Part shown: positions 20,218-54,943 of the stretch, one piece after another
Numbering within the stretch: position 1 is the stretch's first letter
Layout of the letters: every line of letters starts with the position of its first letter
IMG/VR virus record: IMGVR_UViG_3300044691_000265
Location: 1-62,521 of that record
Strand: one strand, 5' to 3'
DNA: 62,521 nucleotides
DNA from: a virus
Made by a program: the position numbers and the translations under genes
Notes under the pieces: generated by a model
Database searches by the model: none
What the model was told of the DNA's origin: nothing
Seen by the model: the letters and a program-made list of their open reading frames with translations, nothing else

Positions 20218-20516
20218 CCGGGCCCGGTGTGCCGCCGCAGGTGATGCAGCCGCGCTTCCTCAGCCGCAAACTGGCCGCGGCCTGGGCCGGGGTCAGCGTC
20301 GCGACCTGGGACCAGGAAGTCGCGGCCGGCAAATGGCCGGCGGGCGAGCCCCGTGGTGCGAAGGGCGGCAAGCTGACCTGGGACATCAAGAAGCTCGAAG
20401 CGCGGGCCGACGGAAGCCCCGGACCTGGGGGACCGGTCGATGACTATGAAGTGGCAAGGGCCAAAGCTGCCGCCCGGCGTCAGCGCGACGCCGGGCAAGC
20501 CAAAGGCCGACGGTAG
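20214..20516 (+). CDS. Excisionase-like (AlpA/MerR-type) DNA-binding protein
   Basis: 100 residues. The pattern FLSRKLAAAWAGVSVATWDQ, then EVAAGKWPAGEP, is the winged-helix element of AlpA-like excisionases, where the wing follows W-x-x-x-V-x-x-G-x-x-P. It overlaps the integrase gene by 77 bases. I infer that it steers integrase towards excision. Confidence 0.7.
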   Translation: MTGPGVPPQVMQPRFLSRKLAAAWAGVSVATWDQEVAAGKWPAGEPRGAKGGKLTWDIKKLEARADGSPGPGGPVDDYEVARAKAAARRQRDAGQAKGRR

Positions 20517-21606
20517 CGTCAGTTGGTATTTCTATTACAAGCCGACCAAGACCAAGCTGCTGCAGACGCCGGGCACCCCGGCGTTCGAGCGCGAGGTCCA
20601 GCGCGCGGCCGGTGCCGGCGCCGAGCCGGTCGTCAAGGTCGAGACCTTGAGCGACATTTGCGACGGCTTCGAGAAGTCGGTCGAGCATAAGCGCTGCGAG
20701 CCCTACACCCGCCTGACCCGCGAACGGGTGCTGGAGAAGATCCGCTTCCGCTGGGGCGAGTACACGGCGGCGCAACTGTCCGACCGCCGGTTCCGCGGCG
20801 AGATCAAGGAATGGCGCGACACGATGTTCGACACGCCGAACATGGCCGACAAGTCGGTGCAGACGCTGCAGCGCGTGATGTGGTGGGCCTACGACGGCGG
20901 CAAGATCCAGTACGACCATTCGAAGAAGATCGGGCGCTTGTCGGCGAAGCAGCCGCGGGCTGAAAAGGTCGTGACGCCCGAGCAGGAAGTCGCCCTGCTT
21001 GCCTGCGCCACGCCGGCCGACCGGCGGTTCTACCTGCTGGCGCGCTACACGGCACTGCGCGAAAGCGACCTGTGCATCCTCAAATGGTCGGACATCGGTG
21101 CCGACGGCTTCATCGAATGGCTGCACAGCAAGACCAAGAAGACGACCAAGGCCCGCAGCTACTACGCCCCGTTCGCGCTGCCGCCGCTCCGAGCCCTGCT
21201 CGACGAGATGCCGCGCTTCAGCATCTATCCGTCGAACGAGCCGTCGGACCTGATCCTGTCGACCGACACCGGCCGCGCCTTGACGCCGAAGAACCTCAAG
21301 TACCGCTGGGCCGCCTGGTGCGCGCGGGCGCAGGCGCTGAACCCGACGCTCGATTTCAGCGACATCCATTTCCACGATCTGCGCCGCACCACGAACCAGG
21401 ATCTGTTGAACGCCGGCTGCACCAACGCCGAGGCGGCCAGCATCACCGGCCATCGGGTCTCGGACAGTGCCGATGGCGCGGGCGGCTCGTTCGAGATCTA
21501 CGCCAGCCGCAGCCGCGCACTGGGCGAGGCCGCCTACCGCAAATGGGCGAGCCGGCTGGTCGCCGCCAGCACCGACAAAAAAGTCGTTCCGTTCCGTTCT
21601 TCCTGA
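20440..21606 (+). CDS. int: Tyrosine integrase
   Basis: 388 residues, the length of a full phage integrase. Arm-binding and core-binding domains occupy about 1-175; the catalytic domain carries Arg207 (TALRESD), Lys in KTKK (231-234), His312 and Arg315 (FHDLRRTT), His338 (TGHR) and the nucleophile Tyr354 (FEIYAS). It integrates the genome into a host attB site with attP, which lies directly downstream. The start overlaps the excisionase-like gene. The attachment core is not identified. Confidence 0.95.
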   Translation: MTMKWQGPKLPPGVSATPGKPKADGSVSWYFYYKPTKTKLLQTPGTPAFEREVQRAAGAGAEPVVKVETLSDICDGFEKSVEHKRCEPYTRLTRERVLEKIRFRWGEYTAAQLSDRRFRGEIKEWRDTMFDTPNMADKSVQTLQRVMWWAYDGGKIQYDHSKKIGRLSAKQPRAEKVVTPEQEVALLACATPADRRFYLLARYTALRESDLCILKWSDIGADGFIEWLHSKTKKTTKARSYYAPFALPPLRALLDEMPRFSIYPSNEPSDLILSTDTGRALTPKNLKYRWAAWCARAQALNPTLDFSDIHFHDLRRTTNQDLLNAGCTNAEAASITGHRVSDSADGAGGSFEIYASRSRALGEAAYRKWASRLVAASTDKKVVPFRSS

Positions 21607-22347: not shown

Positions 22348-22548
22348 TCACGCTTCAAGTTGCGCCGCCTTCGCCGCGGCCTGATCGCCCAGCGCCTTCG
22401 AGACGCTGTCGAGCAACCTGATCTGGTCGGCGGTAATTTGTTCGCCGCTCAAGATTTGTTCGATCACCGGCAGAACCGCTTCCACGTCGGCGCTCAATTC
22501 CGGAACCAGGGCGATCAGTGAACTGATGATCTGCAGGATGGACAGCAT
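22348..22548 (-). CDS. Small hypothetical protein, 66 residues
   Basis: ATG at 22548 directly after the upstream stop (TGATG). MLSILQIISSLIALVPELSA is amphipathic to hydrophobic, the rest helical and acidic (DSVSKALGDQAAAKAAQLEA). Position next to lysis genes suggests a lysis or membrane accessory role; not proven. Confidence 0.55.
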   Translation of the reverse strand: MLSILQIISSLIALVPELSADVEAVLPVIEQILSGEQITADQIRLLDSVSKALGDQAAAKAAQLEA

Positions 22549-22883
22549 CACGGCGTTCCTTTCATCAGGCCCTTGGCGGCCATATAAGCCGAAAACTGAG
22601 TCAGTTCGTCGGTCGCGACCGTGAGCGCCGCCGCATCGACGTTGCCGCCGGTCTCGGCTGCGGTGACCAGCGGTGCCAGATCGGTCGCGGCCCGGACCCG
22701 ATAGGTCTCGATCTGCCGCACGACGGCGACATCGGCCTTGCCGGAGTTCTCATAGATGATCTCGGCCGACACGGCGGCGGCGTAGGCCGATTGCAGCCCC
22801 GCCACGGTGTTGACCGCGTTCGGCTGGCCGTTGACACAGCCGGCGAGCAGCAAGGCCCCTGCCAGCGCTCCGGCGCGCGTCAC
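22548..22883 (-). CDS. Phage lipoprotein
   Basis: 111 residues. MTRAGALAGALLLAGCVNGQ is a lipoprotein signal with lipobox LAGC (Cys16), so it should be anchored in the envelope; Val after Cys does not force inner-membrane retention. The mature part is helical. It sits in the lysis region beside the endolysin, so a spanin-like outer-membrane role is possible, but it is longer than a usual o-spanin and not embedded in an i-spanin gene. Confidence 0.7.
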   Translation of the reverse strand: MTRAGALAGALLLAGCVNGQPNAVNTVAGLQSAYAAAVSAEIIYENSGKADVAVVRQIETYRVRAATDLAPLVTAAETGGNVDAAALTVATDELTQFSAYMAAKGLMKGTP

Positions 22884-23191
22884 TGCGGCTGTCCCGTCAC
22901 GATCGTGGTCGACGGTGCCTTCTGCAGGGCGGCGGCGAGCGTTTCGGCATCGGTGACGACCGTCTGCACGGTCGGGTTGGCCGGATACATGATCTTGGCC
23001 GCGCCGAGCACCGCTAGCACGATCGGGATGAGCGCGGTCCAGACATTGGCCGGCAGCAGGGTCTGAATGAACGGGGCGGCGGCGATCAGCACAGCACCTT
23101 CCGCCGACGAGAATTCCTTTAGCCGATCGAGCAGGCTATAGGGCGTCACCGTCGGCGCCGCCGCGGGAGCAACCGGAACGTCAGGCATCAT
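22880..23191 (-). CDS. Holin candidate
   Basis: 103 residues. One clear membrane helix (VWTALIPIVLAVLGAAKIMY) and a second weaker one (AEGAVLIAAAPFIQTLLP) with a polar N-terminal tail, encoded directly downstream of the endolysin with an 11-base overlap. Size, topology and position fit a class II-like holin that would open the inner membrane for the endolysin. Confidence 0.55.
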   Translation of the reverse strand: MMPDVPVAPAAAPTVTPYSLLDRLKEFSSAEGAVLIAAAPFIQTLLPANVWTALIPIVLAVLGAAKIMYPANPTVQTVVTDAETLAAALQKAPSTTIVTGQPQ

Positions 23192-23642
23192 CCACCTTCC
23201 CTGTTTCCATGATCCGGGCCAGCGCCTCGCACCGGGCCGGCGTCTCCTTGTGCCAATCGGATTTCAGCATCTCGGCCGCGGCCTTGGCGTAATTGCCGAA
23301 CCGGCAGCACGAGATCATGTTGATGAAGCCGAGCAGCCCGGCCAGCCCGAGCTGGAACGCCATCTCGACCAGCGCGCCCTGGCGGATGCCATCGAGCGTG
23401 GCGAACCAAGTGAACACACGGCCGACGTGGTCTTCGGCCTCGGCCATATCCGCATCCAGCCACGCCATCGCCTGCTCGGTCGTAATATCCGGGAACCCGG
23501 CGAGCGGCACATGCTTGACCGGGCTCAGCAGATGGCCGGCGCCTTGGGTGGCATAGCCCTCGCTGTCGTAATAGGCCGCGAGCCGCACGCCTTCGTGCAG
23601 GATCAACCGCGCCCGCAAGATCGAGAGGCTGGTGGCGTCCAT
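23181..23642 (-). CDS. Endolysin, GH24 T4-type lysozyme
   Basis: 153 residues. The catalytic Glu-Asp-Thr triad of T4 lysozyme is conserved in spacing: Glu17 (LILHEGVR), Asp26 (YYDSEG) and Thr32 (YATQGAGH). It would cleave the glycan strands of peptidoglycan in the periplasm. There is no signal peptide, so export depends on a holin, probably 22880-23191. Confidence 0.9.
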   Translation of the reverse strand: MDATSLSILRARLILHEGVRLAAYYDSEGYATQGAGHLLSPVKHVPLAGFPDITTEQAMAWLDADMAEAEDHVGRVFTWFATLDGIRQGALVEMAFQLGLAGLLGFINMISCCRFGNYAKAAAEMLKSDWHKETPARCEALARIMETGKVDDA

Positions 23643-23652
23643 CAGATCACCA

Positions 23653-23883
23653 TCACCTTTTCTCCGGCGACGGCGCTGCCGACTTCAACTTCTCGATTTC
23701 CGCGTTCAGCCGGGCAATCTCGTCTCTCGCCGCCATCAGCGCCGCCTGCATCTGCATCGAATTATTGATTTCCACCGTCAGGCGCTGGGACAGCACCGTC
23801 TGGCTATAGTCCGGCGGCTTTGGCGCGTCGTCGGCCATAGCGAGACCGGGCAGAAGCAAAAGAGCGGGAAGTAGGTATTTCAC
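23653..23883 (-). CDS. Exported coiled-coil protein, 76 residues
   Basis: GTG at 23883 is chosen because AGAAGGA lies 7 nt upstream; longer frames start before the signal. MKYLLPALLLLPGLAMA is a signal peptide with an AMA cleavage site; the mature protein ends in a coiled coil (AARDEIARLNAEIEKLKSAA). It is encoded beside the endolysin and could be a spanin-type periplasmic protein or an attachment partner of the exported fibre-like proteins. Confidence 0.65.
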   Translation of the reverse strand: MKYLLPALLLLPGLAMADDAPKPPDYSQTVLSQRLTVEINNSMQMQAALMAARDEIARLNAEIEKLKSAAPSPEKR

Positions 23884-23903
23884 ATCGACATCCTTCTGGA
23901 ACA

Positions 23904-26069
23904 TCAACAGCCGCCGGGTGCGTGGGTGTAGAGCGCGCCCGCGTTGTTGACGCAGACGGCCAGATTGCCGCCCCCGCCAAGATTCGAGAGTGTGACGACG
24001 CCGTTGCTGCGCTGGACGGTCAGATAGCTTCCCAAGAACGTCCCGGCATCGTTGAACCCGATGACCGCGAAGTTCGAGCCGGCGTTGCTGCCGGTCTCTG
24101 CCGAACTGTCAATACCGACGCTAATGCGCGCCGCTTGGTTGGTGGCGAAAGTCTCTGACCGGAACGTGCCGGCCGCCCCCGTGATCATGCCGCCGGTTGC
24201 TAATTCTGCACCGGCACCAGTCACGCCCCACAGCACCGTGTCGGCCGCCCCGTTCGCGCCGCCGTTGGTCACCGCGAAGTCATACGAGTTGGCATGCCCG
24301 CCGATCGACCCGTCGGTGCGGAAGCCATAGAACGGGATGGCGGCGAATCCGATCGGTCGCCACAGGAAAGCGGTGTTGGTGGCACCATAGGACAGGAATG
24401 AATAGGCTTGGTTGCCTCGGGCCTGATAGCAAGACTGCGCGGTTAGTGTGATACCGGCGCAGTCGAAGCCGACGCCACCCTCGTCAACTGTCGGCAGGGC
24501 GGAATAGGTGACTGAGCCGGTGCCGGTCGCTTTAGCATTAAGCGTCACTATCCCGTCCACGACATCGACCGACAGGATTGTGGTGCCAACCGGGACGCCG
24601 GAATTTGCTATGACGTAGAGGCCGGGGCGCAGTCGGGATGCGTTCGTAACACTGGTCAGCGTGTACGAGCCCGTCGTGGCCGTTGCGGTTCCAGTAGTCA
24701 GCAGCGGCGCAAATGCCGAGGCGTTGTTCGCGATGTCGACCTCGGCCACGACGCCGTGATTCATCTGCGAGCCGGCCGAGATGGTCAGCGTCGCGCCCGT
24801 CGCGTTGCCGGTCGCGGCCTGCGAAACGGTTATGGTGTTTGCCGTATGCTGGGCGATATAAGTGCCGGCGGGGAATAGGGCATTTGACGACAGGAATTGG
24901 CCGTTGTCATAAACACCCGCCGTAGACGCGATCGAACTGATCGTCCGCGAGCCCGACGAAATATTTCCCGTCGTCGTGAAACTGTTCAAGAACAGTTCGG
25001 GTATCATCCCCCAAGCCTTGTCCTGGGGGTTCAAATATGCCTGCGAGCCAGCCGGCGTGCCTGCGGGATTGCTGGCACCAGCATTGATTTGAAACCAGCC
25101 AGACACGGTGATTGCGGTGATGTTGTTCGACCCGTCCGCGGTCCAACTGGTGATCTGGCCGTTGAAGGGCGGGATGTCGCTCGACCGAATCCATTCGCCG
25201 ACTGCGGCGAACGTCTGCCCGGTCTGCGGGATCGGCGCGGTCGGCGTGAAGGTGGTCGGCGTGAAGGTGCCGGGGCCGCTCCATGGTACGGGTTGCGTGT
25301 CGGCACTGACGCAGAGGCCCGCCATGCCGTTCTCGTAATAGGTCGACACCTGACCCGGTGCCGTGTAACCGGAGATGCAGCCTGGGCGATCGGCGCCAAC
25401 CGCGAAGTTGGCCGCCATGGTGGTGTTGAGGTCGCCGTATGGCTTGGAATTGGTGACCGAGATCGGCCCGGTCGACGAATAGAGCGCGTTCGTCGCGAGC
25501 GGGCTCGTGTTGTAGTAGCCGATCCCGCCGATGCCAAAGAGCCAGCTCGGAAAGGGACCGGCATAGGGGTTTGTCGTGCCTTGGGGGCCGATATAGACCG
25601 CTTGGTTGATCAGGCTTTGTCCGCAGTCTTTGAGCAGCGTGCCGAGCGTGTTGTTCCAGCATGCGAGATTGCCGACGCCTGCACTACCCGGCCCGACGAT
25701 GCCGCTGATCACGAACGGGAACTGGTAGATCTGCCCGTTGATGTTGAGATCCAACGGCACCGTTGCGGCACCATTGTAGCTGTTCAAGCTGATGAAGCCG
25801 TTGCCATTCAGCGACACGCCCTCGCACAATTGGACTCTGGGATTGGCCGGATTGGGGTCACTGGAGATGCAGAACGGCAGGCCGCCGTTCTTACTGATCC
25901 CAAGTTCGGTGAGATTGCCGGCCGTCGCTGGGCCGGCGTCCTTGAGAATGCCCGAGGTGACCCATTGCGCGGCGTGGCCCGGTGTCACCGTGCCGGATTG
26001 CTGGATGGACTGGGCGAGCGCCGGGCCGGTGACGGCCAGCAGGGCGAGGGGGATCAGGCTGCGGCGCAT
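23904..26069 (-). CDS. Fibre-like protein with signal peptide
   Basis: 721 residues. Starts MRRSLIPLALLAVTGPALAQ: a classic Sec signal with ALA-Q cleavage, unexpected in a virion protein. The rest is Gly/Thr/Asn-rich, all-beta and repetitive (VTSGILKDAGPATAGNLTEL, then many short hairpins), as in tail fibres, and cysteines occur in close pairs (ACWNNTLGTLLKDC; DCAGITLTAQSC; VCVNNAGALYTHAPGGC), suited to an oxidising compartment. It could be secreted and join the virion or cell surface outside the cytoplasm. Fibre call from composition, secretion from the signal; both inferred. Confidence 0.7.
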   Translation of the reverse strand: MRRSLIPLALLAVTGPALAQSIQQSGTVTPGHAAQWVTSGILKDAGPATAGNLTELGISKNGGLPFCISSDPNPANPRVQLCEGVSLNGNGFISLNSYNGAATVPLDLNINGQIYQFPFVISGIVGPGSAGVGNLACWNNTLGTLLKDCGQSLINQAVYIGPQGTTNPYAGPFPSWLFGIGGIGYYNTSPLATNALYSSTGPISVTNSKPYGDLNTTMAANFAVGADRPGCISGYTAPGQVSTYYENGMAGLCVSADTQPVPWSGPGTFTPTTFTPTAPIPQTGQTFAAVGEWIRSSDIPPFNGQITSWTADGSNNITAITVSGWFQINAGASNPAGTPAGSQAYLNPQDKAWGMIPELFLNSFTTTGNISSGSRTISSIASTAGVYDNGQFLSSNALFPAGTYIAQHTANTITVSQAATGNATGATLTISAGSQMNHGVVAEVDIANNASAFAPLLTTGTATATTGSYTLTSVTNASRLRPGLYVIANSGVPVGTTILSVDVVDGIVTLNAKATGTGSVTYSALPTVDEGGVGFDCAGITLTAQSCYQARGNQAYSFLSYGATNTAFLWRPIGFAAIPFYGFRTDGSIGGHANSYDFAVTNGGANGAADTVLWGVTGAGAELATGGMITGAAGTFRSETFATNQAARISVGIDSSAETGSNAGSNFAVIGFNDAGTFLGSYLTVQRSNGVVTLSNLGGGGNLAVCVNNAGALYTHAPGGC

Positions 26070-26076
26070 GGCGGCG

Positions 26077-27414
26077 CTACTGCCGGCAATTGACGTAGAG
26101 CGTGGCGCCGCTCAGTGCGACGGACGCGCCAAACGTAATCGCGGTGGTCGAGACCGAAGCTATGTCGGTAACGGCGGCTGTGCTGTTCGACGACACGTTG
26201 CAGACAGGCGCGGCCCCCCACGTCTTGCCGAAATTAACGGTGATGGAGGTCTGCGCCGTCCCAGTCGTCACGGTGAACGCATTGTCGTTGCCGCTGGCGA
26301 TTGCCGAACAGCCGGTGCCGCATGACGGACCAAAGCCGCCCGTCACCCAATGGCCTGCACCGTCCAGCGTCAACCCATTAACTACCGTCGTCGTGCCGGT
26401 TGCGGTGGTGCCGAAGACGGCCCGAGTGCCGGTCGCCGCGCCCGTCCAGTTCTCCGTGGCCTGGAACAAGACGGTGTTTCCGACAGTGTAGGCTGATCCC
26501 GTGTAGCCGAAGGTCTGGATCGCCCCCAGCGTCTCGCCCGATAGCACGGCGGTCTTGGATGCGTTCGTGCCGTCGGCCCTGCGGAACGTCAGATCGCCGA
26601 GCGCGCCGAAGGCGTCCAAATTCAGCGCGGTGTTGGTGGCGTCGACGTTGGCGATCTCCAGTAGCGTTCCGGCAACGGGTGCTGCCGGGAGCGCCGTGAC
26701 GTTGTTTGTAATAAGCGGGTTTCCGGCGAGAGACGGCGATGTCGCGAGCACAGCGGCGCCCGTGCCGACGGTAGTCGTGATTAGCGTGCCGTTGATCTTG
26801 AACGAGTTACCGGTAGAAAATGTCGTGTCGAACGTCTTGTTCGTTAGCGTGTCCGTCGTGGCCCGGCCGACATAGGTATCGGTGCCCTGAAAGGTTAGCG
26901 TCGTGGCATCGGTACCGGCGAGCGTCAGGCTGTTGCTCGCCGCGAGCGTCTTGCCCGCCGCCAGCGTCAACGTACCCGTACCAGTCGTGATCGTGTTGCC
27001 GTTCAGCGTCGTGGCGGTCGCGGCGCCAAGAGCAGGCGTCACGAACGTCGGTGACGCCGCGAAGGCGAGCGCGCCGCTGCCGGTCTCATCCGAAATCACG
27101 CCAGCCAGTTGGGCCGAGGTCGTGGCCGCGAAGACGCCCAGATTATTGGCCGTAGTCGTGACCGTGCCGCTGGTCGGTAGCGTCACGGTCGTGGGGCCTA
27201 TCAACGTGAAGGTCAGGCCGCCCGTGCCGCCGATACTGAATAGGTGGCCGCCGATCGAGACGACGGTCGATGCGACCGAACCCGAACCAGGCCCGGCCGT
27301 CACATCGCCGGTCAGTTGGGTGAGGCCGCTTGCACCGATCGCGGTGCCCTGCTGGGCGTGTGCGGCGAGCGGCGGCCCGAGCAGCGCGAGCAGGGCGACG
27401 AACCGGGCGCGCAT
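26077..27414 (-). CDS. Fibre-like protein with signal peptide
   Basis: 445 residues from ATG at 27414, coupled to the upstream stop (TGATG). MRARFVALLALLGPPLAAHA ends in an AHA cleavage site before QQG. The body is strings of beta hairpins (GDVTAGPGSGSVASTVVSIG, then TGTLTLAAGKTLAASNSLTL) typical of phage fibre and adhesin repeats. The C-terminal domain has paired cysteines (CGTGC, APVCNVSS, YVNC) likely to form disulfides after export. Second of three adjacent exported proteins. Confidence 0.7.
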   Translation of the reverse strand: MRARFVALLALLGPPLAAHAQQGTAIGASGLTQLTGDVTAGPGSGSVASTVVSIGGHLFSIGGTGGLTFTLIGPTTVTLPTSGTVTTTANNLGVFAATTSAQLAGVISDETGSGALAFAASPTFVTPALGAATATTLNGNTITTGTGTLTLAAGKTLAASNSLTLAGTDATTLTFQGTDTYVGRATTDTLTNKTFDTTFSTGNSFKINGTLITTTVGTGAAVLATSPSLAGNPLITNNVTALPAAPVAGTLLEIANVDATNTALNLDAFGALGDLTFRRADGTNASKTAVLSGETLGAIQTFGYTGSAYTVGNTVLFQATENWTGAATGTRAVFGTTATGTTTVVNGLTLDGAGHWVTGGFGPSCGTGCSAIASGNDNAFTVTTGTAQTSITVNFGKTWGAAPVCNVSSNSTAAVTDIASVSTTAITFGASVALSGATLYVNCRQ

Positions 27415-27938
27415 CAGAGGAAGTCGGCCGACAGAAAGGCGTGCGTCGAGGCCGTCTTGCTGAAGCAGCCTGTCGTCGACACGCCCATCGTAATGCCGGC
27501 GCTGAACACGGCTGGCGTCGGGAAGGCTGCGGCGAACGACGTCGTGCCGGACGGGAACGCGTAGCACTTGAACGGCGTCACCGCGCCGTCGGCTGGGGCG
27601 GTCGTGGCATTGTAGAGCATCAACCACCAGGCCGCGCCCGACAGCGTCGAATCCGCCGAAACCTCGAAACTATAGAGCGAGCCCGGCGTGGCTTTCGCGA
27701 CCAGGTTCGCTGCCAGCGCCGCCGTCGAGGCTGTGGTCAGCGTCACCGGGGCCGGCGTGATCGTGCCGGTCACCGGCATCGCCACCGACCCGGCCGCGCC
27801 CGTACCGACGAAGGTGTAATCGACCTTGCCGCTGGCTTCCTGGCCGGTCACGACATAAGGCGCCATCGACGTCTGGGCCAGCGCCGAGCCGCCGACCAGC
27901 ACCAGGACCGCGGTAAGCAGGACGCGCAGGGTGTTCAC
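27414..27938 (-). CDS. Exported protein, 174 residues
   Basis: GTG at 27938 overlaps the upstream TGA. Signal peptide MNTLRVLLTAVLVLVGGSALAQ, cut after ALA. The mature chain is beta-rich (VDYTFVGTGAAGSVAMPVTG) and carries two cysteines (FKCYAFPSG, TTGCFSKT). Third of the adjacent exported proteins; it may form a baseplate-like or receptor-binding complex with the other two. No family recognised. Confidence 0.7.
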   Translation of the reverse strand: MNTLRVLLTAVLVLVGGSALAQTSMAPYVVTGQEASGKVDYTFVGTGAAGSVAMPVTGTITPAPVTLTTASTAALAANLVAKATPGSLYSFEVSADSTLSGAAWWLMLYNATTAPADGAVTPFKCYAFPSGTTSFAAAFPTPAVFSAGITMGVSTTGCFSKTASTHAFLSADFL

Positions 27939-28240
27939 CGCCGCCGCACCCATTCCAGCGCCAGCAGGAACAGTGCATACATGCCGATGCCGGTGAGCTG
28001 CAGCACCGACGGGTTCGGCAACACGCTCGACCAGAGCCACCAGGCCGAGAACAACCCGCCGGCTGTGAATAGCGACGACAGCGCAACGACGGTGCGCTGG
28101 CTCAGTGCTTTGAGTGCGAGCAGCAACATCTGAGTTGCTGCGCTGGCTTCTCGGGCAACGTTGGTTTGCGGGGGCGGGGTTGTTTGGGGCGAGATGGACG
28201 GGATTTCGTGTTCGGCGATGGCCTCGAACCCACGCGGCAT
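27935..28240 (-). CDS. Two-span membrane protein, second holin candidate
   Basis: 101 residues from ATG at 28240 (AGGGA upstream). A polar Pro-rich N-terminus, then two membrane helices (VVALSSLFTAGGLFSAWWLW and LTGIGMYALFLLALEWVRRR) with a short loop and a positive end. This is a common holin topology; alternatively it could anchor or export the neighbouring signal-peptide proteins. Confidence 0.55.
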   Translation of the reverse strand: MPRGFEAIAEHEIPSISPQTTPPPQTNVAREASAATQMLLLALKALSQRTVVALSSLFTAGGLFSAWWLWSSVLPNPSVLQLTGIGMYALFLLALEWVRRR

Positions 28241-28253
28241 CAATCGTCCCTAC

Positions 28254-28484
28254 CTAGTCGGCTTGGCGCATACTCTCCTTCAAGTCACCAAAAGTCGTGA
28301 ACTCTTGACTCTCAGTTGCCGTTTTCTTGATGACCCGCGAAGTGCCAATATGGAAGTTGCCCAAGACCTTAAACGCTTCGATCTTTTCCGACAAGGAAAC
28401 CTTCTCGTCCATCGCAGCATTTGCGATCTGCATCGCTAGCTTAGCGAGAGACTTCGAAATATCATCATCTTTGCTTTGAGTCAT
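28254..28484 (-). CDS. Small helical protein, 76 residues
   Basis: ATG at 28484 in TGATG coupling with the upstream gene. MTQSKDDDISKSLAKLAMQI and SEKIEAFKVLGNFHIGTSRV suggest two helices. Between ejection and fibre genes, so it may be a small assembly factor. No family recognised. Confidence 0.55.
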   Translation of the reverse strand: MTQSKDDDISKSLAKLAMQIANAAMDEKVSLSEKIEAFKVLGNFHIGTSRVIKKTATESQEFTTFGDLKESMRQAD

Positions 28485-30700
28485 CACTGATTGACCTGGC
28501 TGGCACCGGTCACCGCCATGCGGCCGAGGATCTTGTTGATGATGTCGTCGGCCGGCGAGGCACCGACATTCATGTGCGCGGCGGCGGCGTCGAGTTGCGC
28601 CTTCAACTGGTCCGGCGGCATCTGCAGAAGCCGGCCGATCTCGTTGCGCTCGCCCTCGTTGAACGGAGTCGCGCCGCCATGGTATGGAGCGCCCAATAGG
28701 CCGCGCGCCGCTTGGAAATACCGGCCGCGGCTCAGATCGGTGGCGACGTGCGCGATGTTCGCCAGGCTCTTGTCGACCTCGTCGCTGGCGGTCATCAATT
28801 CAGCCGTGACGCTGTTGGTGCCGGGCATCAGGCGCTGGTCGTTAGCCGCCAGTATCTGCTCTAGCTTGACGTCCTTAATGAACTGGTCGGCCGGCTCATC
28901 ACCGAGGAATCGCCGCATCTTCGTGACGTACGCGGGCTGAAGCATGTCCTTCATCTTCAGCTTGCCGGACCGGGCTTGCGTGTAAGTATCATTGATCAAA
29001 CCGCCCTTCGCGGCTTGCAACTCAGCCGGCGTATAGCGACTGACCTGCTTCTCGAAATCGCTTTCCGACACGGAACCGCGCATGAGTTTTGGCGCCGACT
29101 TATACGCTTCTTCCATCCGGATCGGCTCACCGCCAGCCGCGACCGCGTCCTTGTATGCGGTGTTTTTGAACAACTCTTCCCGCAGTTCGTCGAGAGTGTC
29201 CCGAACAGCTCGCCCCTTGGTGTCTAGGTTCGGCCGACCGAGCGCATCACGGTCGCGATACACCACGTCTCCGAGCGCCCGCTTGACATAGTCCCAGGTC
29301 TGCATCGTTGGGTTCTTGACCTCGATCTCTTCTTCGGTTTCCGGCCCAGGCCCCCATACAGGCTTCCCGGTCTGAGGATCGACGACAGCCTGGCCGGGCC
29401 TCATGACTTTGATTAGGCCGACGTCATCGGGGTTGCGCCCTTCTTCGGCCGCGATCTGCCGAGCACCGGCCAGTGCCTGCTTCACCGACGGGCGCTTCAG
29501 CAACTCGGTCAGCTTTTCACTTTCGAACGGACCGGTGTCGTTCGCAATGTCGTAAAGAGGCTTGGCCAGCTTCCGCAGATCGCGAACAGCGGTGTCGAAA
29601 TTGCCCTGAACCATATGCGGATCGACGCCCGCCGCTTTGCCGAGCGAATTGATGATACGGTCCGGCCTCTCCTGCTGTCGTTGGCGCAGGAACGATTCTA
29701 GTTGGTCCGGCGTCAGACCTTGGCGGCGACCTATCGACAGCAACTGGGAGATCGCCGGCCTGCCGATCGTCTCAGCAGACGTAACCGGCTTACCAGCGAG
29801 GAATGCTTCGTCCTTCAGTAGATCGGGCAGGGTCTTGCCGGTTTTTTGGATCAGTTCCCTGACGTGTTGCATGGCGAACTCGGTCGCCTTCTGCTGTTCA
29901 GCCGGCGTTAATACCTTCGAGCCGGCCGGGCTGCCGGTCACCGCTTGGACGCCCTGTTGCCAAGCCGCAGACAGCGCCGACGTGATCCGGGCCGCCGCCG
30001 GTTTGGCTAGGCTGCCCAGTGCCGGCAACGAACCACCGATGAGCCCGCCAGTGCCGGCGCCTCGAACGGCGTTCCACAGGTGCTCTTCCGGGGTCTTGGC
30101 GTCCTCGGCACCACCAGCGACAGCGCCGGCCGTGCCACCGGCAATGAGGCCGCGCCCAGCGCGTGCCAGCACGGTCTTACCGGCCGCAATCGCATCGCCC
30201 ATAGCTCCCACGCCCGGCGCCGCCAACCCGCCGGCCAATTCGGTCGCAACGGCGCCGACAGGGTGCGCGTCGGAGAACTTCTTTTCGGCCCCCTCGCGAG
30301 CCTTCAGCGTGGCTCGATACGCCTCGCCGGCCGAATACGGCTGCTTTGCCCCGACAAGCGCGCGGCCCGTATTTTCGATGCCGGTCCCGATCGCGGCCTC
30401 GCCGGCTGCCAACTGGTCGCTCAGACCCCAGGTCAAACCCTTCATTCCAGTGTCAAGCGCGCCGGCAAACTGGTCACGTTGGAGCGCCCCCGCGAACTTC
30501 TCGGCGGCGGCCTGGCTCGGACTGCCGACCGTCGTTTTGGTCGCCTGATCGAATTCGTTCCGGACCGCGTCTAGTTGGTCGGCGGACACCTTCGGCGCGA
30601 CCACTTCCTTGAAATAGTCCTGCCGGGCAGATTCCTGCTGGTCGGGCGGGAGCGCCTTATATTCATCGCTGGCCGCGACATCTTTCCATGCCTTGGGCAT
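28484..30700 (-). CDS. Large internal virion (ejection) protein candidate
   Basis: 738 residues from ATG at 30700, coupled by TGATG to the upstream gene. The start MPKAWKDVAASDEYKALPPD has the short N-terminal repeat-like motif (YxALPPDQQ..A..DYF) seen at the front of large podovirus internal proteins. A Gly/Ala-rich hydrophobic stretch (AGGLAAPGVGAMGDAIAAGK) could insert into membranes; the rest is long helices. I infer a role in DNA ejection across the cell envelope. Confidence 0.65.
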   Translation of the reverse strand: MPKAWKDVAASDEYKALPPDQQESARQDYFKEVVAPKVSADQLDAVRNEFDQATKTTVGSPSQAAAEKFAGALQRDQFAGALDTGMKGLTWGLSDQLAAGEAAIGTGIENTGRALVGAKQPYSAGEAYRATLKAREGAEKKFSDAHPVGAVATELAGGLAAPGVGAMGDAIAAGKTVLARAGRGLIAGGTAGAVAGGAEDAKTPEEHLWNAVRGAGTGGLIGGSLPALGSLAKPAAARITSALSAAWQQGVQAVTGSPAGSKVLTPAEQQKATEFAMQHVRELIQKTGKTLPDLLKDEAFLAGKPVTSAETIGRPAISQLLSIGRRQGLTPDQLESFLRQRQQERPDRIINSLGKAAGVDPHMVQGNFDTAVRDLRKLAKPLYDIANDTGPFESEKLTELLKRPSVKQALAGARQIAAEEGRNPDDVGLIKVMRPGQAVVDPQTGKPVWGPGPETEEEIEVKNPTMQTWDYVKRALGDVVYRDRDALGRPNLDTKGRAVRDTLDELREELFKNTAYKDAVAAGGEPIRMEEAYKSAPKLMRGSVSESDFEKQVSRYTPAELQAAKGGLINDTYTQARSGKLKMKDMLQPAYVTKMRRFLGDEPADQFIKDVKLEQILAANDQRLMPGTNSVTAELMTASDEVDKSLANIAHVATDLSRGRYFQAARGLLGAPYHGGATPFNEGERNEIGRLLQMPPDQLKAQLDAAAAHMNVGASPADDIINKILGRMAVTGASQVNQ

Positions 30701-32752: not shown

Positions 32753-34072
32753 TCAGCCGCCGGCTACCTTGGGCGTCCCGAACCCGTTGATTGACGAGGC
32801 GAAATTCGCAATCGCCGAGCCGGTGTCCTTGGTCTGCTGCTGGTTGATCTTCAGCAGGTTCTCGTAGATGCCGCTCGACAGTTGCGTCTCGTCGATCCCC
32901 TGCTGCAGCAGCTTGTCGGCGATCGAGAACGATTGCGTCTGCGCCTGCAGATCGATCTGGGCCAACGCCTGCTGCTCTTGCTGGCTGCCGGCGAGGCCCT
33001 GCGCCGCGAACTGAGACCGCATGGTCGCCTTGGCCGCCGCCGTCGCCTGGTTGATCGCGGCTTGCGCGCCGGGCGGCAGCGTGCCGTTCTGCAGATACGA
33101 GCCGAGTTGCTTGCCTTGCGCCGAAAGCTGGTTCGCCTGCGCGGTGATGTTGCCAAGCTGCGCCGGGTTCTGGTTCTGTAGCAGGTTGTAGCCCAGCCCG
33201 GCGCCGCCGACGATGGCGGACGGGTTCTTGGCGATGAAATCGGTTACGCCGTTTTCCGGAATGCCGAGCGAGTTCATGATTCTGCCGGCGGTCGACGCGC
33301 CGTAGCCGGACCCGCCCGCAGCCGGTGCCGCAGCGCCGCCGGCCCCGCTCGTCGGCGTCAATCCGGTGCCCCCCGTGCCGGCACCGCCCGTCGTCAGTCC
33401 GGTGCCGGCCGAACTGCCGCCAAGCCCGAACCCGCCGGCACTGCCGGGATCGCCGCTGACGCCGCCGCCGAAGCCGGTCGCGACGTTGTTGCCAAGCGTG
33501 CTGCCCGGCGTCAGCCCGGCCAGGGCATCGGTGCCGCCGCCCGTGGTCAGGCCGAGATTGTTCGCGACGCCGACCGCATCGCCCGTGCCGGCCGAGATAC
33601 CGGCGCCGCCACTGGTCAGATCGACCGGAGCCGCGCCCGCCGGGGCAGCGCCGCCGATCGCCGACGCGCCGCCGGCCGTCGACCCGCCAGCACTGGCACC
33701 GCTTGGCGTCAGCGCGCCGGAAATACCGCCGGTCACCGCCCCGGTGAGCGCGCCCGACACCGGGCTGCCGCCCGTGATGCCTGAATTTACCAGCCCGGCG
33801 CCGGCTCCGATCAGCGCGTCGCTGCCGATCGCGCCAAAACCGGTCGCACTGTCGACTAGGCCACCGGCACCACCGAGACCGCCGAGCGCGCCGCCCGTGA
33901 TGCCGCCGGTCAAGGCGCCGATCCCGACATCGCCGCCCGTGATGGCGGACGTGCCGGCGCCCAGCGCCGCACCCTCGGCCGCGGTCGTCGCAATGCCGGC
34001 CGCCGTTGCTCCAAGACCAATATCCGACGCCAGAAACGCGCCGATCCCCAGATCAATTCCACCGGTCGGCAT
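32753..34072 (-). CDS. Gly/Ala-rich internal virion protein
   Basis: 439 residues from ATG at 34072 (overlaps upstream stop). Residues 1-270 are low-complexity Gly/Ala/Ser/Thr with repeated GG-x-GG (ITGGALGGLGGAGG), likely flexible or membrane-active; the C-terminal 150 residues are a helical domain (QANQLSAQGKQLGSYLQNGT, then RSQFAAQGLAGSQQEQQALA) common in podovirus DNA-transfer proteins. Probably ejected with the DNA. Confidence 0.65.
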   Translation of the reverse strand: MPTGGIDLGIGAFLASDIGLGATAAGIATTAAEGAALGAGTSAITGGDVGIGALTGGITGGALGGLGGAGGLVDSATGFGAIGSDALIGAGAGLVNSGITGGSPVSGALTGAVTGGISGALTPSGASAGGSTAGGASAIGGAAPAGAAPVDLTSGGAGISAGTGDAVGVANNLGLTTGGGTDALAGLTPGSTLGNNVATGFGGGVSGDPGSAGGFGLGGSSAGTGLTTGGAGTGGTGLTPTSGAGGAAAPAAGGSGYGASTAGRIMNSLGIPENGVTDFIAKNPSAIVGGAGLGYNLLQNQNPAQLGNITAQANQLSAQGKQLGSYLQNGTLPPGAQAAINQATAAAKATMRSQFAAQGLAGSQQEQQALAQIDLQAQTQSFSIADKLLQQGIDETQLSSGIYENLLKINQQQTKDTGSAIANFASSINGFGTPKVAGG

Positions 34073-34839
34073 CACATCACCTCGAACGTTTGATCGGTGA
34101 CGCGAACCCGGCAATCATGCAGATCCAGTTCGAGCGGCGTCGCGCTCACGACCCGGATGTACGGCGTCTTCGCCACGCCGGCCCGGCGGTTGTAGTAGGT
34201 GACCGCCTTCATCGGCTGGCCGCCATGGATCATCGCGACGACGGCGCCGGCAACGACATCGTGGAACTCGTCTTCAATGTGCTCGATCGGGGGGCGCCCC
34301 AGTTCTGCCAGTTGCGCCTGGACCTCGGCATGGAACCATTCCCCGATCGGCCGGAGCTGTTGGGGGCAAGTGTCGGGCCAGTCGGTGAACTTGAGCGAGT
34401 GGATCGGCACCGCGTAGTCCTCGTCGCCCTGTACCCAGCCCTTGGCCGACAACCAGTCGAAGCGCATGCCGATCCGCTGTGCTCCGACCGTTGCCGGCAG
34501 GTTCCCGGTCGGCACCTTCGTGACGATCTCGACGCAATCGGTCCGGGTGAACATGAAGAAAAACGCGTCTCTGGCGGCGGCCAGCGTCCACTTGCCTCGG
34601 CCGCTGCGCAGCACCGACGTGTGCAGTTCATAGAGGCCGGGCAGCAGCTTGTGGAAGATCGCCCCGCCGTGCGCGCCGCACAGCACGACGTTGTCCTGGT
34701 TGGCCACCAGCGCCGTCATGTCGAGCACGCCCTTGCCGCCGATGAACGGGCGCACCGCATCATCGTTGATGATCGTGTTGATCACCGTGGCGTCCGACTG
34801 ACGCTCCAACATCGGGATGGGCATGACGGCCTGCAGCAT
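34072..34839 (-). CDS. DUF2824/GNAT-fold-like virion assembly protein
   Basis: 255 residues. The core GLYELHTSVLRSGRGKWTLA, then ARDAFFFMFTRTDCVEIVTK with VGAQRIGMRF, follows the acetyltransferase-fold layout of the phage DUF2824 family (P22 gp14-like, T7 gp13-like position). Such proteins are needed for making infectious particles but are not known to acetylate. The last segment is separate and beta-rich. Confidence 0.6.
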   Translation of the reverse strand: MLQAVMPIPMLERQSDATVINTIINDDAVRPFIGGKGVLDMTALVANQDNVVLCGAHGGAIFHKLLPGLYELHTSVLRSGRGKWTLAAARDAFFFMFTRTDCVEIVTKVPTGNLPATVGAQRIGMRFDWLSAKGWVQGDEDYAVPIHSLKFTDWPDTCPQQLRPIGEWFHAEVQAQLAELGRPPIEHIEDEFHDVVAGAVVAMIHGGQPMKAVTYYNRRAGVAKTPYIRVVSATPLELDLHDCRVRVTDQTFEVM

Positions 34840-42509: not shown

Positions 42510-43106
42510 CTAGATCAGCGCAGCGATGCCTGACACCGCTTGAGAAGGGGTGAATGGGCAGATGTCGATTCCGTATTGCTTGAGAAACGACAGGCTGAAG
42601 CTGATCTTGTCTTGAACGCGCTGACCCGACGGGTGCTGCTTATTCCAAAGCTCAAGATTTTCCGGCGCATTGTCGAGGCGAACGCCATTCAGGTGATGGA
42701 CGGTCTCTTGCGCCAGAAGCGGGCGGCCGATCATCTTTTCCATGACCAGGCGGTGTTCCGGGACGTAGCGTTCACCGACGCGGCGAAGGCGATAGCCGTT
42801 CTTGTCGATCACGCCGTCGGGGTAGGTTTGCGCTGCGTCAGCGCATCCCTTCGAGCAGAACTTGGTCGTGTAATCGAAACTGCCGTGCGCCATGCGCCGC
42901 CGAGCAACGACCTTATGGCAGTGTTCACACTCGTGCGTCGGCGTCGGGATGCGCTGTTGCGCGTGGTAGCAAGCCGCCGAACAGAAGCGACGAGCCGCAC
43001 CCTTCCGAGCCTCGTAGGCTTTCGCCTGGCTACCATGGATCGCGAATGTCACGGAGCAGCGCTCACAGGACATCTCGATCTTGGGAAGAGCGCGGTGGTT
43101 GCGCAT
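42510..43106 (-). CDS. HNH homing endonuclease between scaffold and capsid
   Basis: 198 residues from ATG at 43106. Three zinc-binding elements precede the nuclease (CERCSVTF..FCSAACY; CEHCHKVV..FCSKGCAD), then the HNH core YVPEHRLVMEKMIGRP, TVHHLNGVRLDNAPENLELW. This is the standard freestanding phage homing endonuclease layout. It overlaps the scaffold stop by four bases but plays no structural role. Confidence 0.85.
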   Translation of the reverse strand: MRNHRALPKIEMSCERCSVTFAIHGSQAKAYEARKGAARRFCSAACYHAQQRIPTPTHECEHCHKVVARRRMAHGSFDYTTKFCSKGCADAAQTYPDGVIDKNGYRLRRVGERYVPEHRLVMEKMIGRPLLAQETVHHLNGVRLDNAPENLELWNKQHPSGQRVQDKISFSLSFLKQYGIDICPFTPSQAVSGIAALI

Positions 43107-43699
43107 CACCGACGCGAGCCGCCGCGGAAATCGTTGAGAGATTTATTGATGAGCACGTTGAGCGAGCGGTCGTCGTCGCCCTTGGCTTCCATCAGGCGCT
43201 GGCGCTCGGCCTCGTCGCTGTCGGTCTCCGTGTCGTCGAACAGGTTCCAGCCGCCCGAACCACGGGGCTGAGCCGGTTCCGGTGGCGGATTGAGGCGATC
43301 GAACAGGGCGGCGGCGGCTTCGAGATCGGGCAGCCCGCGCTCTTCGGCGAACTTCTCGACCGCGTCGATGCCCTGGTCGGTGTAGCCGGCCCTGGCCAGG
43401 CTGGACCGCTGACGGCCCCAGTTATCGGCGAATTCCTTGACCTTCTTGTCGGCCGCGGCCTGTTCCTTCTCGGCCTCGCGTTCGGCCTTCTCGGCGGCGA
43501 ACTCGGACCGGATCTTCTCGACTTCGCTCATGACCTCGGTCTTGGCGTCGAGTTCCGGAATGACGGCGTTCGGATTGACCTTCTTGGTCGCCTGATGCAC
43601 GAGCCGGCGCGCTTCCGGATGGGCCAGCATCGCCTGGTACAGCGTGGTCAACTGCTGCTGCGCGGCGTACTGCTGCTCGTCGATCTCGCGCGTGGCCAT
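43106..43699 (-). CDS. Scaffolding protein
   Basis: 197 residues, highly charged and helical: EVEKIRSEFAAEKAEREAEK, then QAAADKKVKEFADNW, with a disordered Pro/Gly segment and a basic C-terminus (NVLINKSLNDFRGGSRR) that would bind capsid subunits. Such composition directly before the capsid gene is characteristic. It guides procapsid assembly and leaves before packaging. Confidence 0.75.
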   Translation of the reverse strand: MATREIDEQQYAAQQQLTTLYQAMLAHPEARRLVHQATKKVNPNAVIPELDAKTEVMSEVEKIRSEFAAEKAEREAEKEQAAADKKVKEFADNWGRQRSSLARAGYTDQGIDAVEKFAEERGLPDLEAAAALFDRLNPPPEPAQPRGSGGWNLFDDTETDSDEAERQRLMEAKGDDDRSLNVLINKSLNDFRGGSRR

Positions 43700-47872: not shown

Positions 47873-49771
47873 CTATCTCCCGCGCCAGTTGGCCCGGCGC
47901 ATGGCACTGGCCTCGCGCCGACGACCGGCGGCCTTCACCGCGAAAAAGTTGGTGAGCTGGTGGTTGTTGAACATCTGGATCTGGTCGCGGATGGTCAGCC
48001 GCCGCGCCGCCGCCTCGTTCTCGCGGGTCCGCTTCGTCGTCGCCATGATCCGGCGCACGCGCTCTTCCCAGCAGCGAATGCCCATCGCCAGCGACATGAC
48101 CCGGTCGTCCTTCTTGGCGCCGTCGCCGGAAATGCTGTCGCCCTCGCGCACGATCCACTTCATCTCTTCTACAGTCTCAAGGGATCTGACGTGTAGCATC
48201 AGGTTTTCGGTGAAATCGCGCAGGCGCTCCATCAACGATACCTTGAGATTTCCCGTGGTTTTCCACATATATGATTTGCCCGGCGTCATTGAGTCCGACC
48301 GGCCGTAGAGGTAATTCTTGACGTTTCGGAAGATCTGCTGAAGTCCGCGCTCTTCGACTTCGCGCGGCTGATAGCCGTTCTGCAATTGACGCTTCAGCGA
48401 TTGCAGTTCCTGCCAGACCGCCTCTCCCGGCCCGTTCAACTCGACGATCAGATAGCATTCCTTGTACCAACCGAGCAGTGAGGCGACGACCCACGCGAAC
48501 TGCCGGGTGTTGACCAGCGGCCAGGCGTATTCGGCGACCTGGTCGACGCCGTCGGCATAGCAGCGCAGCACCTGGATCGCCGAGCGGTCGGACAGTTCGG
48601 AGTGCCCGAACGCCGGGTCGGCCGCGATCACATAGACCCCATCCTCTTCCGGCTCTTCCCAGACCTTCAACTGAGTGGATTTGGCATTGACCGCTGGATA
48701 GACCCGGCAATCGACGAACTCGATCCCGGTCGCATAGGCATAAGCCTTGTATTTTGCCGAAACATGCTTCTTCGTCATCTCGCCGAGCTTTGACGCCTCG
48801 AAAAACTGCGCGGCGGTCTGCTGAAACGCGTCTTCCTCGACCCATGGCTGCTCTTGAAGCCGGATGGTGTTGTCTTCGTAGTCGGCATCGTTGTCGCTGT
48901 CGGTCTTGGCGCTCGGGTCCATCTTCCGGCGCACCCACGCAAGCTGTTCCGGTGTGATCTGCCAGCCGTAGCGCTCGTAAACCTCTTCGATCCGCTCCAT
49001 TTCGCGCTCGGTCGGCGGTTCGAGGCCGTATAACTCGAAATCCGGGTCGTCGCGCTCGATGACCTGGCTGTCCTTCGACCACCAGCCGAGAAAAATGCAT
49101 TCGGAGTGGTTTTCGTCCTCGATCGCCTCGTCCCACATCTGCGACCAGAGGTTCCAGCCGCGCGCCGTCGACTCCCAGATGTAAAACCGGTCCGGATTGA
49201 TGTCGGACAGCGACTGCTTGAAGCTCTCGACACCTTCTTCATCGCCCCACGAGCACATTTCCGAGCAATGGGCGTAGGACAGGCCCGACGACCGGCCGAG
49301 ACCGCCGCTGTTCTTGTTCTTGCCGACGCCGGCCGACAGGAATTGGATGGTCGAACCGTTGCTGAGCGTGAGTTCTTCGCGATTATTGGCCACGATCGTG
49401 GGAAATTTCAACGTGGCTGGCAGCGATCGGATCATCGCCTCGACTTCGCGCCGGGCCTTGTTCTTGTTCTTGTCGGTGTCGAAGACGATGGCACCTTCGA
49501 GGCCGTCGTGGATGCCGAGCCAGAACACCGACAGCGCCCGGCTGAAGGTCGACACGCCGAGCTGCCGGCTCTTGAGCACGAAGAAAATGTGCTTGCCCTT
49601 GCGCAGCCCGTCGCAGATCCGCCGGAACAGCACTTTCTGGGCACGATAGATGTGCCGTCCGAGGCAGGTGTTGCCGCCCAGGTCTTTCGAGTTGATGTAG
49701 ACATGATCCAGGAACGTGAAGAACGCGGTCTCGAACGCCTGGATCTTGCCTTCGGACCAGCCGTCGGCCAT
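47873..49771 (-). CDS. terL: Terminase large subunit
   Basis: 632 residues. The packaging ATPase carries a Walker A-like loop near residues 66-75 (LKSRQLGVST), an adenine/translocation region and the acidic residue at YAHCSE (Glu171). The nuclease half has the RuvC-like acidic sites: Asp385 (VIAADPAFG), Glu444 (LIVELNG) and Asp555/556 (KKDDRVMSL). It cuts concatemeric DNA and drives it through the portal. No small subunit was recognised nearby. The zinc protein starts three bases after its end. Confidence 0.9.
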   Translation of the reverse strand: MADGWSEGKIQAFETAFFTFLDHVYINSKDLGGNTCLGRHIYRAQKVLFRRICDGLRKGKHIFFVLKSRQLGVSTFSRALSVFWLGIHDGLEGAIVFDTDKNKNKARREVEAMIRSLPATLKFPTIVANNREELTLSNGSTIQFLSAGVGKNKNSGGLGRSSGLSYAHCSEMCSWGDEEGVESFKQSLSDINPDRFYIWESTARGWNLWSQMWDEAIEDENHSECIFLGWWSKDSQVIERDDPDFELYGLEPPTEREMERIEEVYERYGWQITPEQLAWVRRKMDPSAKTDSDNDADYEDNTIRLQEQPWVEEDAFQQTAAQFFEASKLGEMTKKHVSAKYKAYAYATGIEFVDCRVYPAVNAKSTQLKVWEEPEEDGVYVIAADPAFGHSELSDRSAIQVLRCYADGVDQVAEYAWPLVNTRQFAWVVASLLGWYKECYLIVELNGPGEAVWQELQSLKRQLQNGYQPREVEERGLQQIFRNVKNYLYGRSDSMTPGKSYMWKTTGNLKVSLMERLRDFTENLMLHVRSLETVEEMKWIVREGDSISGDGAKKDDRVMSLAMGIRCWEERVRRIMATTKRTRENEAAARRLTIRDQIQMFNNHQLTNFFAVKAAGRRREASAMRRANWRGR

Positions 49772-53708: not shown

Positions 53709-54943
53709 ACCTCAGCCTCCGGGTCTTCAACGATGACTTGGGGGAAGTAGACCAGGAAGGCATCCTTGGCATCCGGCCGCTTGGCCTTGATCTTAGCCAT
53801 GATCTCTGGTGCGAAATTCCAGGCTGTGACAACCCACAAGATCGGACCGGTCGCGCGGCTCCATTGCCCGGTCCAACCCTCAATCCGTGTACCGGCCGTC
53901 GTATAGCGGTTTTGCTTTAGCGGGTTCTCATCGACGATCGAATCGATCTGGATGCCGGAGAAATTCAGGAACGTGATCGCCTTCGCGGCGGCGCCGTAGC
54001 CGACGATGGGATATTTCTTCGCCCGGTAAATCTCGATCGTCGACTTGACCAGATCGACCCGCTCCTGAACCCGCTGCTGGAACCCGTCGTAGAGCGTCAG
54101 ACCGTAAAGCCCGGCCGCGCGCTCGGCATTGGTCGTCGCCAGCCGACGCGGCTTTGTCACGCCATCGCGGCCGAGCTGCACCAGGTACGACGTGCCATGG
54201 ATCGGCATCCGCTCGATCTTGACGATCGTCAGGCCGCAACGCTCAGCAAGGGCACTGAACGACGCTGTCGTGAAGAACGACAGATGCTCGTGGTAGCAGG
54301 TATCGAACTCGGCATTGACCACCATGTCGGCCTGCGACGTCTGGATATAGATCCGGCCGCCCGGTTCGAGCGACAGCGCCGCCAGCCGCAGAAACAGCGC
54401 CGGGTTCTCGACGTGGCCCAGCACGTTCATCGCGATGATCACGTCGAACTTGCCGCCGAGCCGGTATTCCGGGACCATCTCCCAGTACCAGGGCAACACC
54501 TTGATGCCGGCCTCAGCCGCTACGGCAACCAGATTCTGCGCCGGGTCGACGCCGAGCACTTCATGGCCGCGGCTCTTGAAGGCTTTCAGCAGCGTGCCGT
54601 CGTTGGCCGCGATGTCGAGCACGCGCAGTGCATGGCTGCCGGGGCCGGTCAGTTCGGTCTCGACCTTGATCACGAACTGGCGGAAATAATCGCGCAGCGT
54701 CTGCGACGTGCCGCTGACATAGGCATATTCGCGGAACATCAAATCGCGATTGACAGCGACGAAATTCTGGCTGTGCCAGCAGTCGATGCAGAGGTTCAGC
54801 CCGAGCGGATAGGTCGGCCAGGTCGCGTCGGCGAGATCGGTCAGCGAATTGGCCAGCGGCTGATCCGGCGCCCGAAAATACGGCCGCAAATTCTCGCCGC
54901 CGCACGCCAGGCAATGGGTGAGCGTGCGGAACGGCTCGCCCAT
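53705..54943 (-). CDS. SAM-dependent C-methyltransferase, zinc-binding type
   Basis: 412 residues from ATG at 54943. An N-terminal zinc-binding part (CLACGG, residues 11-16; LCIDCWHS, 51-58) precedes the SAM site (VLDIAANDGTLLK, 108-120), then IAMNVLGHVENPALFLR and a C-terminal domain (YPIVGYGAAAKAITFLNFSG). This is the Methyltransf_13/23/14 architecture of sugar C-methyltransferases used in NDP-deoxysugar synthesis. With the epimerase next to it, it should alter a nucleotide-sugar. Confidence 0.8.
   Translation of the reverse strand: MGEPFRTLTHCLACGGENLRPYFRAPDQPLANSLTDLADATWPTYPLGLNLCIDCWHSQNFVAVNRDLMFREYAYVSGTSQTLRDYFRQFVIKVETELTGPGSHALRVLDIAANDGTLLKAFKSRGHEVLGVDPAQNLVAVAAEAGIKVLPWYWEMVPEYRLGGKFDVIIAMNVLGHVENPALFLRLAALSLEPGGRIYIQTSQADMVVNAEFDTCYHEHLSFFTTASFSALAERCGLTIVKIERMPIHGTSYLVQLGRDGVTKPRRLATTNAERAAGLYGLTLYDGFQQRVQERVDLVKSTIEIYRAKKYPIVGYGAAAKAITFLNFSGIQIDSIVDENPLKQNRYTTAGTRIEGWTGQWSRATGPILWVVTAWNFAPEIMAKIKAKRPDAKDAFLVYFPQVIVEDPEAEV

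Follow-up and report, generated by a model that had tools for sequence, protein, structure and literature searches.

The usual view is that the fibres of tailed phages are made in the reducing cytoplasm; in vitro, P22 tailspikes attach to completed heads. The closest exported analogue of the locus described here is found in the mosaic adhesive trimer (MAT) fibres of Bdellovibrio bacteriovorus, in which a signal peptide is followed by a conserved beta domain of ~130 residues, given as a prediction only, and by variable phage-like fibres (PMC10769870). Virion disulfides are described for Agrobacterium phage Milano, an ordinary tailed phage locked by disulfides that form a network within the assembled tail and baseplate, so that cysteines alone do not prove export (PMC10811340). 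Phage Lom is encoded in a tail-fibre region (PMC12309495). In the open-access literature, no account of an exported tailed-phage fibre was found, nor any precedent for a tailed-phage fibre that joins virions from the periplasm.

From the sequences analysed here, the fibre proteins of a group of uncultured tailed phages appear to be exported via the host Sec pathway. The window examined was the whole of a 62,521-base IMG/VR virus record. Like MAT, its protein FIBA has a predicted signal peptide, then a conserved domain of ~130 residues that is modelled as all-beta, then a variable, phage-fibre-like remainder. Residues 620-705 of FIBA match the solved MAT fibre chain 8ojn (E 4e-5), and residues 281-363 of a second protein, FIBB, match chain 8on4 (E 1.5e-4); both chains were tied to the MAT paper (PMC10769870) by chain codes and names. 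MAT fibres are adhesins encoded on a bacterial chromosome and directed at prey, whereas the window proteins come from a late operon of a phage, and the window N-terminal domain is shared with phage tailspikes (the two N-terminal domains were likened by description). The fibre/tailspike modules and the ejection-protein N-terminus resemble those of P22-like podoviruses, whose tailspikes and fibres are made without signal peptides; the window proteins carry predicted Sec leaders and paired cysteines. Milano, also likened by description, shares with the proposed window fibres the disulfide-rich virion proteins of a tailed phage, but the description of Milano concerns disulfides of the assembled tail and baseplate and not exported precursors of fibres. 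Lambda Lom is likewise an exported product of a tail-fibre region, but it forms a beta barrel in the outer membrane and is expressed in lysogeny, whereas FIBA and FIBB are built of fibre modules and no anchor was found in them. A conserved exported, cysteine-paired fibre locus would mean either that virions are completed from two compartments or that fibre-like proteins are secreted for another use; both would affect annotation, since the genes of the exported locus are now unnamed, and the locus links phage fibres with the MAT fibres that Bdellovibrio exports.

Organization of the late region

The exported cluster was located on the minus strand, with ejection genes on one side and the lysozyme gene on the other (Table 1). 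The N-terminus of the ejection protein matches P22-type DNA transfer proteins (P22-like gp16/gp20 region). The starts of the exported genes (EXPC, GTG at 27938; FIBB, ATG at 27414; FIBA, ATG at 26069; the coiled-coil gene, ATG at 23904) are fixed by stop/start overlaps with the preceding gene, GTGA between the gene at 28240 and EXPC and TGATG both between EXPC and FIBB and between FIBA and the coiled-coil gene; FIBA starts after a gap of 7 bases. Promoter-like sites that could serve the exported genes separately were not above shuffled sequences in a consensus scan. Downstream of the lysis genes, at 21949-21920 on the minus strand, a strong stem-loop is followed by T-rich sequence and is a possible end of the late operon.

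Table 1. Features of the window, by position (bases) and strand
Feature	Position	Strand	Description
Integrase	20440-21606		
Lipoprotein in lysis cassette	22548..22883	(-)	lipobox LLLAG↓C
Small membrane protein, possible holin	22880..23149	(-)	called on a hydrophobic stretch
Phage lysozyme (endolysin)	23181..23642	(-)	Pfam Phage_lysozyme, E 4e-13
Small coiled-coil protein, predicted exported	23653..23904	(-)	between FIBA and lysozyme; weaker leader
FIBA	23904..26069	(-)	predicted Sec leader, conserved ~130-residue N-terminal QSG domain, variable fibre, 10 mature cysteines
FIBA N-terminal domain	25623..26015	(-)	two Cys pairs, 67/82 and 137/149
FIBB	26077..27414	(-)	predicted Sec leader, fibre shaft repeats, C-terminal part with 4 cysteines
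EXPC	27414..27938	(-)	predicted Sec leader, beta-sandwich domain, 2 mature cysteines
TM28	27935..28240	(-)	small membrane protein just upstream of exported fibre genes; conserved locus marker
Ejection protein	28484..30700	(-)	structural gene upstream of cluster; PHROG DNA ejection protein
Portal-like protein	45511-47238		matches portals of two uncultured phages
Terminase	47873-49771		

Leaders and cysteines of the window proteins

Three consecutive late genes (27938-23904), EXPC, FIBB and FIBA, encode predicted cleavable Sec leaders ending in AxA (MNTLRVLLTAVLVLVGGSALA↓QTS, MRARFVALLALLGPPLAAHA↓QQG and MRRSLIPLALLAVTGPALA↓QSI, respectively). The leader of the coiled-coil protein ends in GLAMA↓DDA and scored more weakly from the overlapping start; that of the lipoprotein (22883-22548) reads MTRAGALAGALLLAG↓CVN. 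The sequence-only reading had proposed Sec leaders with AxA sites for four consecutive genes, a lipoprotein beside them and a fibre-like character for the cluster. The leaders proved typical in EXPC, FIBB and FIBA and weaker in the coiled-coil protein, the lipobox bears out the lipoprotein, and the fibre-like character holds for FIBA, FIBB and EXPC; the coiled-coil protein and the lipoprotein look like lysis-cassette companions adjoining the lysozyme.

Leaders were called by a simple h-region and AxA scorer, which gave no positives among 109 structural-gene controls. Among window genes of at least 60 aa, 7/92 bear a leader, and five of these seven sit within seven consecutive genes (permutation p = 4e-4). 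The mature cysteines can be paired throughout, in FIBA within the N-terminal domain (Table 1) and at 231/253, 537/547 and 706/721, in FIBB at 365/369 and 405/443, and in EXPC at 125/158.

FIBA matched a PHROG tail spike family (E 1e-7) and FIBB a PHROG virion structural protein family (E 4e-13), and both have the sequence modules of a tailed-phage fibre or tailspike by these matches; as judged from the predicted Sec leaders, they and EXPC depart from cytoplasmic synthesis without a signal peptide. Pfam searches found no outer-membrane anchor family in the large exported proteins of the window, and PHROG and Pfam searches no hydrolase or spanin family for FIBA, FIBB or EXPC. Only the coiled-coil protein and the lipoprotein resemble a short inner-membrane/lipoprotein coiled-coil pair of the spanin type, without a family match; the coiled-coil protein and the possible holin likewise had none in PHROG and Pfam. 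A relative of the lipoprotein adjoins a lysozyme gene in one related genome (G041).

Structure prediction, proposed earlier as a check on the five products, gave a beta-sandwich for EXPC (pLDDT 86) that resembles uncharacterised phage proteins, and an all-beta model of moderate confidence for the FIBA N-terminal domain (pLDDT 68). Matches of the EXPC model to the PDB (C1q, cement protein) were below significance, and the fold search of the N-terminal domain against the PDB gave no significant match. In relatives, the EXPC domain makes up the C-terminal portion of exported fibres; a search of 50,697 phage records found no relatives of EXPC or of the exported fibre of L202.

Conservation of the exported locus

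Relatives were gathered via terminase (TerL), the FIBA N-terminal domain, TM28 and two domains of the cluster. A further TerL search, covering 385 genomes, yielded a single moderate match (38% identity) beside weak ones. A single-sequence scan with whole FIBA found no relatives; these came via TerL and then the N-terminal domain.

TM28 homologues lie at the equivalent position in relatives. At 22 TM28 loci, a leader was called in 34/70 downstream genes and in 0/109 upstream genes (Fisher 2e-17), and cysteines rose from 0.10 per 100 residues upstream to 1.52 downstream. The predicted leaders are not chance. In some downstream genes the Sec leader is replaced by a Tat-like twin-arginine start (MKHLSRRDFVHAG in L163; MISRRRLLISAAVL in L178/L180). 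The cysteine number was even in 44/45 exported proteins with two or more cysteines, as against 117/207 (57%) non-exported ones (p = 2.6e-12), counted over all lineages after removal of similar sequences; because domains are shared, these proteins are less than fully independent. The parity across relatives and the comparison of leaders with cysteine pairs (below) agree with the earlier proposal that proteins with close cysteine pairs fold outside the cytoplasm, and both predicted export and extracytoplasmic, cysteine-paired folding are well supported.

Downstream of the cluster, several relatives (L099:6496-7248, L131:7694-8500, L150:3162-3947) encode a predicted exported protein with an AADMPVKAPP-type start, which we take to be a candidate Omp25-like porin. 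A small gene directly after an exported fibre gene (L143:10464-10832) is by eye like a tail-fibre assembly chaperone, for which it is a candidate.

Exported and non-exported copies of the FIBA N-terminal domain

The conserved stretch of FIBA occupies ~130 residues directly after the cleavage site. Among 27 copies of this domain, 23 have a leader. Both cysteines of pair 1 (67/82) are present in at least 22/23 exported copies, counted by segment; the copy in L202 shows one of them, in a poorly aligning region. Neither cysteine is present in the four non-exported copies. Three of these (two in G045, one in G010) lie in a structural cassette between homologues of the window genes 38568 and 36504, and the remaining one, from G043, belongs to a gene truncated by a contig end and adjoins a homologue of 39494. 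The G010 copy runs into a region matching pectate-lyase-type tailspikes and EPS depolymerases, and G045 has, besides its two cassette copies, a separate exported cluster that follows the ejection genes. The FIBA N-terminal domain, a putative attachment domain, is shared with homologues in virion modules, being 44-48% identical to the cassette proteins of G045 and G010.

On a tree, the window copy groups with two non-exported copies (support 87/89), so that the leader and the cysteines would have been gained or lost together one to three times; changes as few as one to three allow no test of the link on the tree itself. A 15-sequence alignment of the domain was too diverse for a pattern scan. 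Three matches in Alphaproteobacteria were rejected: L159 falls within a gene resembling transketolase, L160 is a fibre-type gene of another kind that is not exported, and no relevant gene was seen in L161. A small (~160 aa), mostly cysteine-free and leaderless protein with a QSG start often directly precedes an exported QSG fibre (L095:9027-9515, L178:13236-13718, L181:12084-12575, L200:7992-8465).

Exported relatives were also found in the structural modules of other lineages. An exported FIBA-like gene lies just before a tail-protein gene (phrog_394) in L202, L204 and L209, and downstream of the major head protein gene in L202 and L204; the capsid family of this lineage is another one (phrog_212, GP7), as tested in L202 and L204. 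The exported EXPC relative of L217 is flanked by a capsid gene on one side and head-tail connector genes on the other. In the structural cassettes of seven window relatives (G004, G008, G013, G034, G035, G042 and G044), no cytoplasmic fibre gene of the FIBA or 35726 type was seen, a count in which other fibre genes could be missed.

Proposed assembly and alternatives

We give roughly an even chance to FIBA, FIBB and EXPC being virion appendages that fold and are oxidised in the periplasm, docking on particles after a breach of the inner membrane. They would be made as secretory precursors, translated late alongside the products of the ejection and lysis genes, and would cross the inner membrane by Sec (some relatives having Tat-like leaders). 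Their leaders would then be lost and the proteins would fold, presumably as trimers, with their cysteines paired as disulfides in the oxidising periplasm; virions would be put together in the cytoplasm and lack them at that stage. Breach of the inner membrane by the holin, followed by endolysin action, would let the cytoplasmic and periplasmic pools mix, and the appendages would dock on particles via the N-terminal domain shared with cytoplasmic tailspikes. Docking at this point is favoured because that domain is shared and because relatives lie in head-tail modules. Also in its favour are the seven relatives whose structural cassettes showed no FIBA-type or 35726-type cytoplasmic fibre, and the in vitro binding of P22 tailspikes to heads. 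Among the roles offered by the sequence-only reading, fibres that join particles after lysis fit best on the same grounds; receptor masking and lysogenic conversion fit less well, since Pfam searches found no outer-membrane anchor in the large exported proteins and their genes overlap the late genes co-directionally in a single run. The N-terminal domain could serve folding or trimerisation instead of docking, dilution at lysis could lower the efficiency of docking, and genes of a fibre locus can be unrelated morons.

It is unlikely that the proteins are free decoys or adhesins, released at lysis and never carried on virions, which occupy receptors on debris or neighbouring cells. Soluble, cysteine-paired proteins with variable regions after a conserved N-terminal domain, and with fibre-like modules common to the MAT adhesins, would suit such a role, but it leaves unexplained why that domain is shared with structural-cassette tailspikes and why relatives lie inside head-tail modules. 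Superinfection exclusion in the periplasm or receptor masking before lysis is decidedly improbable: several relatives also encode the predicted exported protein like an Omp25-type porin, and Lom is a case of a tail-fibre-region gene (PMC12309495), but, with no outer-membrane anchor found, soluble products would stay in the periplasm, evidence for a separate promoter was not above chance, and the genes overlap late genes. The integrase gene would allow for morons expressed from a prophage in lysogenic conversion. This is very unlikely, however, given that the genes lie on the strand of the ejection and lysis genes and form one overlapping run with them, and that own-promoter sites were not above chance in the consensus scan.

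There is a very slim chance that the proteins stay in the cytoplasm, their leaders being anchors at the N-terminus or hydrophobic by coincidence; the calls do come from a simple scorer, but the cysteine parity, the leader-linked cysteine pairs, the Tat-like leaders at the same locus and the leaderless control genes all argue against it. We attach hardly any probability to accessory lysis or envelope-degrading proteins that are exported to aid cell disruption, although the cluster adjoins the lysozyme, the lipoprotein and the possible holin, and the coiled-coil protein may be spanin-like: FIBA and FIBB match fibre or virion proteins, and neither they nor EXPC belong to a hydrolase or spanin family in the searches above.

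Docking of periplasmic appendages at lysis may have a wider counterpart, to which we give somewhat less than an even chance: a secretory branch of tailed-phage assembly in several podovirus-like lineages, in which leaders and cysteine pairs were added to ordinary fibres that mature by Sec/Tat export and periplasmic disulfide formation and join particles at lysis.

Other genes of the window

An acyltransferase-like gene (34072-34839; weak PHROG match, E 0.002) lies within the structural cassette, a nucleotide-sugar epimerase-like gene (54943-55752; PHROG E 1.5e-18) lies upstream of the terminase gene, and an HNH endonuclease gene (42510-43109) adjoins the major capsid gene region.
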